Below, piece after piece: positions 38,963 to 54,902 of a DNA stretch of 64,000 nucleotides. The notes beneath the pieces are model-generated. The model worked only from the letters and a program-made list of their open reading frames with translations. It was not told the DNA's origin and searched no databases. Position numbers and translations under genes: made by a program. Origin of the DNA: Emticicia oligotrophica DSM 17448 (lineage in GTDB: Bacteria > Bacteroidota > Bacteroidia > Cytophagales > Spirosomataceae); contig NC_018748.1 of NCBI RefSeq assembly GCF_000263195.1, positions 1,984,001 to 2,048,000 on the forward strand, given 5' to 3'. How positions within the stretch are numbered: position 1 is the first letter of the stretch; each line of letters begins with the position of its first letter.

Positions 38963-40165
38963 ATGAACCAAAATATCGACAAACTTTATAGAATAGCACA
39001 AAAGAAAGAACGCCTAATAATTGGCTTAATGTCAGGCACTTCAATGGATGGGCTTGATGTAGCTTTATGTAAATTTCGAGGAAGTGGTGGCGATACTGAG
39101 GTAAGTGTGATTGGCTTTGAGACGATTGGTTTTGATGAGGAAGTAAAAGATGAAATTCGACAAGTTTTTGCCAAGCCAACCATAAGTTTTCTACAATTAT
39201 GTGTATTGAACCCTTGGATTGGCAACCTTCACGCCGATATTATTAATAAATGTTTGAAAAAATGGAATATTTCACCCAATGAGGTTGATTTAATCGCTAG
39301 TCACGGACAAACAGTTTTTCATGCACCAAGGATTCTTCATAAAATTGAGAAATTCCCTAACGCTACACTTCAAATTGGTGATGGAGACCACATTGCAGTA
39401 AAAACAGGTATCATTACATTTTCAGATTTTCGCCAAAAACATTGTGCAGCAGGTGGCGAAGGAGCTCCTTTAGCGGTTTATGGTGACTATCTTATTTTTT
39501 CTAAGCGAAATGAAAATCGTATTCTCCTGAATATGGGTGGGATTTCCAATTTTACTTATTTGGCAGGAAATCTTGATGCAAACGAGGTATTTGCTACTGA
39601 TACTGGGCCTGGAAATACCTTGATTGACGCTTACATGAAGAAACATTTGAACCTACCTTATGATAAAGATGCTAAGGTAGCCAGTAGAGGAACGATAAAT
39701 CGAATGTTGTTGGATGAATTAAAAAGAGATGATTTTTTTGCTAAGCCATTCCCTAAAACTACTGGCCCTGAGTTATTTAACCTCGAATATTTGAAAAATG
39801 CACAAGATAAAAGTAATACACTTGGGCTTTCGCACGAAGATATTTTGGCAACATTATGTAGGTTTTCGGCTGAAACAATTGCTGAGGCAATCTTACGAAT
39901 GATGGAGTCTAAAACTTTGAAAGATGTGAGTGTCTATGCAAGTGGTGGAGGGGTCCATAATCCACTAATTATGAGCAGTTTAAAAGGGTTATTGCCTAGT
40001 TTTGAATTCCTGAAAACAGACGATTTAGGTATTGCGGGCGATGCAAAAGAAGCGGTTCTATTTGCTACTTTGGCCAATGAGGCAGTTTCGGGGGGGAATA
40101 CCAATTTCGGTACTCGCAAGGGCGTTCCAAGCATAAACTTGGGTAAAGTTTCGTTTCCATACTAA
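38963..40165 (+). CDS. anmK: Anhydro-N-acetylmuramic acid kinase
   Basis: A 400-residue sugar kinase that opens and phosphorylates 1,6-anhydro-MurNAc to MurNAc-6-phosphate, recycling peptidoglycan fragments. The phosphate-binding start is LIIGLMSGTSMDGLDVALC. Further family motifs are DLIASHGQTVFHAP, QIGDGDHIAVKTG, the catalytic-aspartate region TVSDFR-like ITFSDFRQKHCAAGGEGAPL, LLNMGGISNFT and DTGPGNTLID, and SGGGVHNPLIM near the end. All are intact. murQ, the usual next enzyme, is not adjacent. The NamZ-type muramidase gene 15 kb away fits the same recycling theme. Confidence 0.95.
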   Translation: MNQNIDKLYRIAQKKERLIIGLMSGTSMDGLDVALCKFRGSGGDTEVSVIGFETIGFDEEVKDEIRQVFAKPTISFLQLCVLNPWIGNLHADIINKCLKKWNISPNEVDLIASHGQTVFHAPRILHKIEKFPNATLQIGDGDHIAVKTGIITFSDFRQKHCAAGGEGAPLAVYGDYLIFSKRNENRILLNMGGISNFTYLAGNLDANEVFATDTGPGNTLIDAYMKKHLNLPYDKDAKVASRGTINRMLLDELKRDDFFAKPFPKTTGPELFNLEYLKNAQDKSNTLGLSHEDILATLCRFSAETIAEAILRMMESKTLKDVSVYASGGGVHNPLIMSSLKGLLPSFEFLKTDDLGIAGDAKEAVLFATLANEAVSGGNTNFGTRKGVPSINLGKVSFPY

Positions 40166-49562: not shown

Positions 49563-52292
49563 TTAGTCAGTCACACATCGGAATCCAACCGTTGCATTGC
49601 GTTCAAAACCTTCTGAAACTCGTAACAAATGTTGACGATGGGTGAGTTTTTGAGGTCCGCCTTGCACATACCACCAACTTGAGGTAGGTTTAAAAAACGA
49701 GCCACCTTTAAGCATGATATACTGATAAGAACCATTCTGATAAACATCGTTCGTGAGTTGCCAAACGCTACCAACCATATCGTTTATTTTTAGTTCACTT
49801 GCACCAGTAGGGTGTTGTCCAACTTTGCTAATTTGTCCGTTTCCGTTATTAGTTTTGGTTGAATCAAACGCATTTCCCCAAGGATAAGCTCGTGAGTCGG
49901 GATATTGGGCGGCATATTGCCATTCTTTTTCAGTAGGAAGGCGTTTGCCTTTTGATTGGCAATAGCTTTGGGCATCTTGATAGCTTACATAAACAGCAGG
50001 ATATTTTCCTAAAGTATCAGGTTGTTTGCTCATTTGCCAGTGCTTCAAAAAATTGAGCTTATCAGTTGGTAGGTATTTAGTTTCCGATAAAAACTTCTTA
50101 AAATCGGCATTACTTACTAGGTTTTGGTCAATCCAGAAGCTTTTCATGAATTGCGTAGTATTATTTTGTTCGTCAGGATAGAATACAAAATCATCACCCC
50201 TTGTAAATGTAAACTTGAAGTTTTGTGCGGGGATTTTTATCATTTTGCTGTAATCAGCCTTGTTTTTTACTTCTGAAATGGCACTAATTAGGCGTGGCGT
50301 CCCAGGTTTTACTTCAAAAATTCGTTCATCAATTAAGCGTGCATTATCAAATAATTGAACCACAAATTTCCCTTCGTAGCTACCAAAATAATCTATCAGT
50401 TTAAGGCTAAAATTTGTTTTTTTGAAAGATTGATAGCTTTGTTCATAGCTTGGTTTGCCTGCCCATATTCTTACTTCTGTTCCACGTGGTGCATTGATTT
50501 TTAGAGAATCTTCGTATAACTGATGGTGAATTTGTAGGAGACTTGGAAATTTCCTGATACAGCCAACTTCTCCTTCATTGTTTGTGCCGAGCCAAGATGC
50601 ATTAAAGGCCTCGGTTTCAACCTCTATATAGAATTTGCCATCGTTTTGTTTGTTTGGCGAAATTTCTTTATGCTGCCAGAGGTCGATGTAATGAAAATCT
50701 TTTGTAGAATCGACGGCAAATAAAGGGCCTTTAAAACCTTCTGGTATTAGGCTGAAAATGGTATAAATGGCTTCATCGTTATTTTTATGCTTCCATTCGT
50801 TTACATAAATCTTGTCTTTAAGCGTAGAAATGAGCGGAACATAGTTTTTTGATTGAAAAAATGCAGAATTTTCACGTAAAATTCTTGATGTTCGACCCAA
50901 ATAGCGGTACTGTTCATCAAGCCACTCAAGCGGTTTCCCATTTTTAAAAATATTGAGTTCTGTACCATAACCATTAAAAAATGAAGTGGCGAATTCTCTT
51001 TTGATAGGTTCGAGGTAAATTTCAGCTACTCGAAAAATAGCGAAGTCTGGGCGTATAAATTTATTGAGGTTCAACAAAGGTGGGTAGTAAAGGGCATTAT
51101 GAACCCTTCCCGAAATAATTCCCGACATATTCTTCGGCACAGCCATTCCTTCCGAATACATGACTACTCCTTTTCTTACACTATCGGCGGCATTTTGTAG
51201 TGCTTTGCTAGATTCGCCTTTTGTATCTAATACCACGCCATCTGCTGAAACAGCCCTTACCAACTCCGCCATGCCATCAAGGTGGCCTTTTTCGCCTTCT
51301 TTGGCCGATATTTTGTAGCTTGTACTTTCATCCCAAGGATTATAGCAGATAAAAAACTTCGTATTTTGTTGACGTGAGTATTCGGCCAATGATTTAATTT
51401 TAGGCAAACCTCCCGGTAAATCACGAAACATGTCCCATTGATTACGTTGGTCGAGGCCGAGCGTTGGCCAAGTTGGCCAAATACCTACGGCATCATTGCC
51501 ACCATAAAGTTTTTTGCCATTTTCTAAGAAATTTTTATAGGCTCCGTAGCCTTCTTTGGGTGTATAAAACCATTTATCCCAGACCATTATTAGGTGCATC
51601 ACGTAGGCATCTCGAATCCATTGCAAATCTTTCCTCTGGTACATCGAGTCATCGAATTTTTCAATATCATATAAATAATTTTCTTGAAAAACCTTTCTGA
51701 TACCTTCTTGCCAATCACCTTGATAAAAATCAACGTAAAGTTCATAAGTCACAGTTCCTTGCGGAGCAATGATGGTTTCAAACCTTTTGCGAGTTGCTTT
51801 TTCCCATGTTTTCCTACGAGTCAGAGCATAAACTTTCTGTTGATTGGTCAGTTCGATGGTAGCATACCCAAGTTCCCAAGCGTTATCGGGTACAATAACA
51901 TTGACAGGCGTTTTATTAGGTTGAAATAAATGCGTTCTTGAAAGCCAATGGTCGCCCAAACCAGTGATGTACACATGTTTATCCGAAACGCCAAATGGAA
52001 CGATGTTTCGGAGGTTTAGGGTGTCATTTGAGATGTTTTTGAAAACAATTTTAGCTTTATAGGCATTTCTGAAGCTTCCTTCGCTTATAAAACTAATTTC
52101 AAACTTTGTTTGCCAATCTTGGTTTAAGGTATTGGTTAGTTGTTTATTTATCTCGAAAGAAAGTAGAGGAGTTATAGCAGTTGGTGCGTGTTCTGAAATT
52201 CTTTTTATTTCGTAATTTTCTAATTTTAATTGTGCCACTTGGCCATGAGTCGCAGCGTATGTGAATAAAATTAAGAGGAAGATTTTTTTCAT
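49563..52292 (-). CDS. Secreted TIM-barrel glycosidase-like protein fused to an FGE-sulfatase (SUMF1-like) domain
   Basis: A 909-residue exported protein (signal MKKIFLLILFTYAATHGQVA). Residues ~20-200 form a beta-sandwich. About 210-520 look like a (beta/alpha)8 glycoside-hydrolase barrel: AVGIWPTWPTLGLDQRNQWD, TKFFICYNPWDES, SADGVVLDTKGES (a candidate nucleophile aspartate at a strand end) and VVMYSEGMA. A second beta domain follows. The last ~220 residues are an FGE-sulfatase fold: SFWIDQNLVSNADFKKFL, AVYVSYQDAQSYCQSKGKRL, PTEKEWQYAAQ, YPWGNAF, NDMVGSVWQLTND and VGFRCV. The Cys pair used by true formylglycine-generating enzymes is missing, so this domain more likely binds a ligand. Substrate unknown. 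Confidence 0.8.
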   Translation of the reverse strand: MKKIFLLILFTYAATHGQVAQLKLENYEIKRISEHAPTAITPLLSFEINKQLTNTLNQDWQTKFEISFISEGSFRNAYKAKIVFKNISNDTLNLRNIVPFGVSDKHVYITGLGDHWLSRTHLFQPNKTPVNVIVPDNAWELGYATIELTNQQKVYALTRRKTWEKATRKRFETIIAPQGTVTYELYVDFYQGDWQEGIRKVFQENYLYDIEKFDDSMYQRKDLQWIRDAYVMHLIMVWDKWFYTPKEGYGAYKNFLENGKKLYGGNDAVGIWPTWPTLGLDQRNQWDMFRDLPGGLPKIKSLAEYSRQQNTKFFICYNPWDESTSYKISAKEGEKGHLDGMAELVRAVSADGVVLDTKGESSKALQNAADSVRKGVVMYSEGMAVPKNMSGIISGRVHNALYYPPLLNLNKFIRPDFAIFRVAEIYLEPIKREFATSFFNGYGTELNIFKNGKPLEWLDEQYRYLGRTSRILRENSAFFQSKNYVPLISTLKDKIYVNEWKHKNNDEAIYTIFSLIPEGFKGPLFAVDSTKDFHYIDLWQHKEISPNKQNDGKFYIEVETEAFNASWLGTNNEGEVGCIRKFPSLLQIHHQLYEDSLKINAPRGTEVRIWAGKPSYEQSYQSFKKTNFSLKLIDYFGSYEGKFVVQLFDNARLIDERIFEVKPGTPRLISAISEVKNKADYSKMIKIPAQNFKFTFTRGDDFVFYPDEQNNTTQFMKSFWIDQNLVSNADFKKFLSETKYLPTDKLNFLKHWQMSKQPDTLGKYPAVYVSYQDAQSYCQSKGKRLPTEKEWQYAAQYPDSRAYPWGNAFDSTKTNNGNGQISKVGQHPTGASELKINDMVGSVWQLTNDVYQNGSYQYIMLKGGSFFKPTSSWWYVQGGPQKLTHRQHLLRVSEGFERNATVGFRCVTD

Positions 52293-53657: not shown

Positions 53658-54902
53658 TTAAGGGTAAATCAAATATTTCTTTCTTTTAACTTTAAATTCA
53701 CTCAGACCGGGCTCCCAACTTTTTCTGATTTCTGCTTCCGAGAAGCCATCAATAATTTGTTGTTTGAATTTCTCGGTTCCTGCCAGTTTATTAATATCGC
53801 CCATTTGTTTGCTTTGAGTTCGGTCGAAAAACTTGTCTTTATATGGGTAGGCTTTATAAAGTTCCATCATCCATGATAGATTAAGTTGCTTGCTTTTTCG
53901 TAGGGTATTTATATCATATTTTCTCAAATCAAGTCCAAAACATTCTTCATTTTGGTGAAGTGGGGTTTCGCTCATGCCTTGAATACTTACGGGTTTAAAG
54001 CTGAAATCGTATTTACCTTTTAGGGCTGGAGCTCCCAAAACAGTAAACGGAATGTAGGTTCCACGCCCTTGGCTAATAATGGTTCCCTCAAACAAACAAA
54101 CACTCGGATAAAGCATAATAGATTGTTGAGAATTGAGGTTTGGCGATGGAAAAACTGGTAAATCGTAAGGCATTTCGTGGTTGTAGTTGGCCATTTTAAT
54201 AACACGAATTTTGCATTGACGCTTATTCGGAATCCAACCTTCACCATTAATCATTTGAGCAAATTCTCCCATTGTAAGACCATGAGCAATCGGAATTGGG
54301 AAAATACCGATACCTGAATATAAATGCTCTTCTAAAATGGGGCCATCAACCAAATACCCATTTGGGTTCGGGCGGTCTAAAACGATAAGTTCCTTATTAA
54401 ATTCCGCACAAGATTCCATCACGTGGGCAAGTGTGTTGATATAAGTATAGAATCTGGCTCCTACATCTTGTATGTCAAAAATCATCACATCAACATCTTC
54501 TAAATGTTCTTTGGTTGGGCGTTTAATTTTGCCATAAAGTGAAATAATCGGAATACCCGTTTTGGCATCAACTTCATTATTTACCTTCGCACCATTACTG
54601 GCATTGCCACGGAAACCATGTTCGGGTCCAAAAACCTTCACAATATTCACACCCAAACTTAGTAAACTATCTACGCTTGGCTTTTTACCAATAATTGAAG
54701 TTTGATTGACGACCATGGCCACTCGTTTGCCCTTAAGAAGTGGCAAATAGGCCGAAATTTGGTCGGCACCAGTTATGATTTCTTTTTTAGCTACACTAAC
54801 TGAAGATGAGTTATCGGCTAATAATTGCATTTTATTACAAGCAAATAAAAGTACAACGGCTAATTGTAGGGCAAGAAAAATGTTTAAAAGAGGGTTTTTC
54901 AT
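53658..54902 (-). CDS. Exo-beta-N-acetylmuramidase NamZ-type lipoprotein (DUF1343, GH171)
   Basis: A 414-residue probable lipoprotein (hydrophobic N-terminus then LLFAC). The DUF1343 family includes NamZ, which releases MurNAc from the non-reducing ends of peptidoglycan fragments. Visible motifs are VAMVVNQTSI, VKVFGPEHGFRGNA, PIISLYGKIKRPT, MIFDIQDVGARFYTYI, VLDRPNPNGYLVDGP, PIPIAHGLTMGEFA and LFEGTIISQGRGTYIPF; the glutamates and aspartates conserved in the family are in place. It starts 25 bases after a class D beta-lactamase-like gene on the same strand, so the two are likely co-transcribed and work in the periplasm on cell-wall material. Confidence 0.9.
   Translation of the reverse strand: MKNPLLNIFLALQLAVVLLFACNKMQLLADNSSSVSVAKKEIITGADQISAYLPLLKGKRVAMVVNQTSIIGKKPSVDSLLSLGVNIVKVFGPEHGFRGNASNGAKVNNEVDAKTGIPIISLYGKIKRPTKEHLEDVDVMIFDIQDVGARFYTYINTLAHVMESCAEFNKELIVLDRPNPNGYLVDGPILEEHLYSGIGIFPIPIAHGLTMGEFAQMINGEGWIPNKRQCKIRVIKMANYNHEMPYDLPVFPSPNLNSQQSIMLYPSVCLFEGTIISQGRGTYIPFTVLGAPALKGKYDFSFKPVSIQGMSETPLHQNEECFGLDLRKYDINTLRKSKQLNLSWMMELYKAYPYKDKFFDRTQSKQMGDINKLAGTEKFKQQIIDGFSEAEIRKSWEPGLSEFKVKRKKYLIYP

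Follow-up and report, generated by a model that had tools for sequence, protein, structure and literature searches.

In the glycoside hydrolase (GH) families GH13, GH101, and GH129, strand 4 of the (β/α)8 barrel ends in an Asp and strand 5 in a Glu. In GH13, a third Asp sits at strand 7, and in the GH-D clan (GH36 and GH27), the acid/base Asp ends strand 6. The GH13 fold also occurs in a non-enzyme, the CD98 heavy chain. Among the proteins that adopt the fold of the formylglycine-generating enzyme (FGE), SUMF2 (1y4j) and PorK/GldK are non-catalytic. A review describes the GH101 barrel as resembling that of GH13 and the catalytic domains of GH129 and GH101 as alike (PMC8106489). Here, we describe a protein of 909 residues from Emticicia oligotrophica DSM 17448, encoded in the window (the whole stretch of DNA that was analysed, 64,000 nucleotides of contig NC_018748.1). 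Since it joins a barrel of the sugar-cleaving type, which is unmatched by sequence searches, to an FGE domain devoid of the catalytic cysteines, and since the two parts are kept together in distant bacteria, the protein is probably an uncharacterised sugar-cutting enzyme. We consider it rather likely that this fusion is a secreted enzyme, a retaining glycosidase whose family none of the Pfam, NCBIfam, or PDB sequence models searched was found to cover, and that its FGE domain has been repurposed for a non-oxidase role. Computation supports the conservation of the acid pair, the loss of the oxidase cysteines, and the pairing of the domains; we infer hydrolysis, the substrate, export, and the role of the FGE domain.

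The coding sequence spans positions 49563..52292 of the window on the minus strand (909 amino acids, stop codon included), and the coordinates of its parts given below are likewise on the minus strand. The opposite (plus) strand of this interval is riddled with stops in the same register, and a chance ORF is ruled out by relatives at 47 loci. The host genome contains 1 full-length copy of the fusion gene and 6 PF03781 matches in total. AlphaFold modelled the whole protein with a mean pLDDT of 85.6 and a pTM of 0.85, and residues 190–600 alone with values of 86.2 and 0.88. The protein begins with a probable Sec signal peptide (residues 1–18; 52239..52292), read by eye from the sequence MKKIFLLILFTYAATHGQ; residues 1–30 have low confidence in the AlphaFold model. 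An N-terminal β-strand domain (residues 44–190; 51723..52163), which is mostly missing from a shorter subtype of 704–729 residues, is followed by the (β/α)8 barrel (residues 214–479; 50856..51653), which was delimited by the 2 AlphaFold models and fold matches. A β-strand region (residues 495–660; 50313..50810) links the barrel to the Cys-less FGE-sulfatase-fold domain (residues 683–907; 49572..50246), which was delimited by PF03781 and fold matches. The strands of the N-terminal domain and of the linking region are those of the AlphaFold model. The signal-peptide-like start suggests that the 909-residue protein is probably exported.

The relatives come from a scan in which each species was represented by one genome; it returned 47 loci with best-segment identities of 36–78% to the 909-residue protein. 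The record titles of these loci name Bacteroidota or groups inside it. The alignment of 46 rows omits L040, L044, and L045, which are incomplete. Seven barrel residues (D281, R283, Q285, W320, D321, D356, and E381) are identical in 46 of 46 rows and are kept in all 22 compared barrels, including those of divergent subtypes; S872, W874, and Y875 of the FGE domain are likewise identical in all 46 rows. The mean column identity is 63% over residues 190–600 (46 rows) and 61% over the FGE domain (33 rows). A further alignment (A3) consisted of 32 of the 46 rows and L071, and trees were built from chosen representatives.

In both AlphaFold models, the confident barrel core (residues 231–448) is composed of 8 strands (residues 231–236, 268–272, 312–317, 352–355, 377–380, 394–397, 418–424, and 443–448) that alternate with helices. 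A Foldseek search with the whole model placed α-galactosidases (several titled GH36), ZgGH129, α-amylases, GH97, and GH101 enzymes at the top, the α-galactosidases being the best hits. Structural alignment of the barrel alone with VIA-align gave Z scores of 23.1 to an α-amylase and to a maltogenic amylase (both GH13), 20.2 to the blood-group galactosaminidase 9ayu, 19.6–19.9 to GH129 enzymes, 19.6 to GH27, and 19.5–19.6 to the CD98 heavy chain. Sequence searches returned no profile of a known GH family for the barrel: the best Pfam match in the 46 members apart from PF03781 had an E-value of 0.027, the best NCBIfam match of the barrel had an E-value of 0.11, and a PDB profile search with the barrel gave chance-level matches alone, the best of them (E 0.2) to kinases. 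The NCBIfam matches of the whole protein were all far under the cut-offs and were to families that share the FGE fold.

By the strand order of the AlphaFold model, Asp356 (51225..51227), the proposed nucleophile, closes strand 4, and Glu381 (51150..51152), the proposed acid/base, closes strand 5; both are invariant in the 46 rows and the 22 barrels. Structure titles among the Foldseek hits mention GH101 mutants at D764 and E796. An invariant acid at barrel strand 7 was not noticed. Strand 6 (394–397) contains R396 and is followed by H398, neither of which is acidic, so that an acid/base of the GH36 type was ruled out there. Because the non-enzyme CD98 heavy chain also matches the barrel, activity is not proven by the fold alone. 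This match, and the presence of the non-catalytic SUMF2 (1y4j) and PorK/GldK among the solved FGE-fold relatives of the C-terminal domain, would suit a glycan-binding protein whose barrel has lost hydrolysis and acts with the FGE domain as a lectin. We judge such a protein unlikely, given that all 22 barrels retain the Asp and the Glu at the positions expected for a retaining glycosidase, despite identities of 22–30% between subtypes, and we retain the reading of the barrel as a retaining glycosidase.

The C-terminal domain contains the sole Pfam domain found in the protein, PF03781 (residues 683–907, E 6.3e-32, 111.7 bits against a cut-off of 23.3), and its fold matches CalU17, EgtB, SUMF2, and FGE at Z scores of 20–21. 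Its best PDB sequence match is SUMF2, and EgtB and PvdO are among its sequence and fold matches. As the C-terminal 75 residues could not be aligned through the Cys loop of the solved FGEs, an FGE-like paralogue from the same genome (L080) was used instead. L080 has the motif GGSFLCEPGWC, the 2 cysteines of which align with K868 and W873 of the fusion. Among 46 relatives, none has a Cys at position 868, 1 (L028) has a Cys at position 873, and no row has both; the CxxxxC pair is likewise found in none of the 46 relatives and none of the 22 barrel-linked FGE domains. The retooled active-site loop, GGSFFKPTSSWWYV (residues 863–876; 49665..49706), includes the invariant S872, W874, and Y875, and this S-x-W-Y motif is present in 22 of 22 barrel-linked FGE domains versus 0 of 8 others (30 compared). 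Two of the 8 FGE domains without a barrel link carry the Cys pair.

With both catalytic cysteines replaced, the FGE domain of the fusion should not act as a formylglycine-generating oxidase. The PF03781 match and the FGE fold are what one would see if a genuine, sulfatase-activating FGE were joined to a glycosidase, but such an identity is extremely improbable for a domain whose Cys pair is missing from 46 of 46 relatives and 22 of 22 barrel-linked domains, in a genome that keeps a separate Cys-bearing FGE-type protein; the missing pair led us to reject it for the fusion. These results substantiate the earlier note, which had read from the sequence a central glycosidase-like TIM barrel with a candidate nucleophile Asp and a C-terminal FGE-sulfatase domain with a replaced Cys pair. 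The barrel recurs in 2 AlphaFold models (pLDDT 85.6 and 86.2) and resembles solved glycosidase barrels with Z scores up to 23, the Asp, left unnumbered in the note, corresponds to the conserved D356 that closes strand 4, and a conserved Glu accompanies it. The binding role that the note had proposed for the FGE domain is putative; the domain is conserved, and its former active-site loop is retooled.

A tree of the 30 compared FGE domains and 7 further FGE proteins (2 with the Cys pair) placed all 21 sampled fused domains in one clade (support 98/93), which the FGE protein of the split genes described below joins weakly (66/95). Four Cys-bearing proteins and the Cys-less L115 form a separate group (99/99).

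The pairing of the 2 domains was surveyed with a barrel profile against 395 Bacteroidota genomes, 15 of which had a match at an E-value of 1e-10. All 15 genomes have an FGE domain of the barrel-linked kind in the same or the adjacent gene. Ten have the arrangement of the 909-residue window protein, 1 (G253) has a shorter fused form of 704 residues without the N-terminal domain, 1 (G326) has the barrel and FGE halves at contig ends, and 3 (G313, G352, and G376) have a 280-residue FGE gene adjoining a barrel gene of 748–770 residues. The 280-residue split FGE protein has a signal-peptide-like start of its own. In G269 (L051, minus strand), which is one of these ten, an in-frame TAG in the FGE domain separates an ORF of 792 residues from a following ORF of 144 residues in the same frame, representing either a pseudogene or a sequencing error. 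In another locus (L042, 7842–12632), an uninterrupted ORF of 1,597 residues combines the barrel, a Cys-less FGE domain, and a GH127-type domain.

The fusion is patchily distributed, being present in 12 of 120 genomes in the family of E. oligotrophica. Beyond the 395 genomes, the searches covered the species-genome scan, which returned close relatives, and collections of plasmids and phages. A short fused form was found on a Sphingopyxis plasmid (Alphaproteobacteria) and on a Spirosoma plasmid, and both plasmid records label the fusion “SUMF1/EgtB/PvdO family nonheme iron enzyme”. The phage collection gave partial matches only, to the FGE region, in 4 records. Two candidates per genome were scored in one scan and up to 5 in the barrel-profile scan, so that weak or extra copies may be missed in these counts. 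The search for the same domain order that the earlier note had suggested found an FGE partner in every barrel-bearing genome among the 395. Its claim of a new domain arrangement stands in part: no characterised member was found by title and abstract in the open-access literature, but the same combination recurs across Bacteroidota and on a Sphingopyxis plasmid. The glycan processing that it had envisaged agrees with the carbohydrate-related neighbours of many relatives, which are described below.

Comparison of the main family with the short subtype revealed identities of 36–49% (mean 43%) for the FGE domain and 22–30% (mean 26%) for the barrel, with the FGE domain higher in 80 of 80 pairs. 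Inside the main family, both domains average 54%, and the FGE domain is higher in 54 of 120 pairs. Identity in the barrel rises with identity in the FGE domain (r 0.80 over 210 non-independent pairs), and the barrel and FGE trees agree in their main groupings, which indicates that the 2 domains have probably travelled together. The higher FGE identity between subtypes, the S-x-W-Y loop kept in 22 of 22 domains, and the matches to EgtB and PvdO could also be explained if the FGE domain were an enzyme of another chemistry (compare PvdO and EgtB) that modifies the sugar before or after cleavage. This seems doubtful to us, as conservation is equal inside the main family, no metal or redox site was identified in the FGE domain, and no EgtB-like DinB partner domain was found (no Pfam match in any of 46 members). 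The lack of a DinB domain also rules out an EgtB-type enzyme. We therefore keep to a glycosidase with a repurposed FGE domain as the preferred reading.

The gene neighbourhoods provide leads to the substrate. One of the tested GH or Sus genes lies within about 8 kb in 25 of 47 relatives and in none of the other 22, some of which are on short contigs. Across 66 stretches near the fusion, GH127 occurs in 19, a GH-G-clan-like protein in 12, GH172 (DUF2961) in 9, and a ribokinase-type kinase in 6, 3 of the last being from near-identical genomes. In a control over 12 of the 15 barrel-bearing genomes, from which the 3 split-gene genomes were left out, 4 of the 23 GH127 copies, in 4 of the 12 genomes, lie within 8.5 kb of the barrel gene versus 0.096 expected (Poisson p 3e-6), and 2 of the 8 DUF2961 genes lie within 10 kb of it versus 0.045 expected (p 0.001); both distance limits were chosen post hoc, with the neighbours already seen. 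GH127 includes a β-L-arabinofuranosidase, and GH172 includes α-D-arabino- and fructofuranosidases (PMC8106489, PMC10115798, and PMC8605356). The Sphingopyxis gene order is TonB receptor, ribokinase, fusion protein, and β-L-arabinofuranosidase-domain protein, and GH28 genes lie near 2 short-type members. These differing neighbours (GH127, GH172, ribokinase-type, and GH28) suggest that the substrate probably varies between subtypes, and furanosides are no more than a lead.

Several individual neighbourhoods deserve description. In L071, L072, and L073, genes for a RhaT-type transporter and a PfkB kinase immediately precede the split FGE and barrel genes. Two distant relatives, L075 (10364–11923) and L029, have genes for an ADP-ribosylglycohydrolase-family protein, a ribokinase-type kinase, and a transporter close to the fusion. 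In Flavobacterium granuli (L024, 5859–19013), 2 tandem fusion paralogues are followed by 2 tandem copies of a GH-G-type gene, and in a Flavihumibacter MAG (L034, 10646–14265), the GH-G-type neighbour is split into 2 ORFs of 364 and 796 residues, perhaps by a frameshift.

GH127, GH172, and Sus genes are absent within about 8.5 kb of the window gene, the neighbours of which are a moeA gene, a NamZ-type muramidase, and a transpeptidase-domain protein. The window also encodes 2 proteins of peptidoglycan recycling, the NamZ exo-muramidase (53658–54902) and the AnmK kinase (38963–40165). A NamZ gene lies near the fusion in 4 of the 66 stretches (the window and 3 other loci), all of the Emticicia kind; this proximity fits the ordinary gene order of one genus and was not taken as a functional link.

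In the mechanism that we propose for the glycosidase, D356 on strand 4 would attack the anomeric carbon and E381 on strand 5 would serve as the acid/base, following the scheme of GH13, GH101, and GH129. A reused pocket around S872-x-W874-Y875 would let the FGE domain bind part of the glycan or cap the barrel active site, making the barrel and the FGE domain one working unit. The gene lies in glycan-degradation clusters in many relatives, perhaps for furanose-containing glycans, and stands alone in this genome. A more speculative extension, which we offer tentatively, is that the fusion belongs to an unclassified GH family whose sugar-binding active site has come to include a domain that was once an oxidase (the FGE domain), the barrel having diversified for different substrates and the FGE domain being more conserved between subtypes; the recurrent GH127 and GH172 neighbours, with ribokinase-type kinases in some lineages, would then suggest furanoside substrates, which may be glycans containing ribose or arabinose. 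Should the barrel prove active, the fusion would add an unclassified glycosidase family and a further reuse of the FGE fold without its cysteines. The public annotation of the plasmid records, which names the FGE half alone as a nonheme iron enzyme, probably misleads researchers, and the split gene pair of 3 genomes is a simple system for testing the need for the FGE part.

No characterised member of the fusion was found in the open-access literature, judged by title and abstract. The closest known systems share one of its halves. With the nonheme iron proteins EgtB, OvoA, and SenA, after which 2 public records name it, the fusion has the FGE-fold half in common, but a DinB domain was found in none of the 46 fusion members. 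The GH36/GH27/GH97 group provides, with its α-galactosidases, the top Foldseek matches of the whole fusion model; unlike this group, the fusion has its invariant Glu on strand 5, and R396 and H398 at strand 6. With GH13, GH101, and GH129, the fusion shares the (β/α)8 barrel, the strand-4 Asp, and the strand-5 Glu (Z 19.6–23 to α-amylases and GH129). It differs from these families in its identity of 7–13% among the matches listed, in having no Pfam or PDB sequence match to them and no noticed strand-7 acid, and in carrying an FGE domain. Residues 683–907 share both the fold and the PF03781 sequence profile with SUMF1 (FGE) and SUMF2. In contrast to catalytic FGE, however, the fusion has exchanged the Cys pair for a loop with the S-x-W-Y motif, and its FGE domain is linked to a glycosidase-type barrel.
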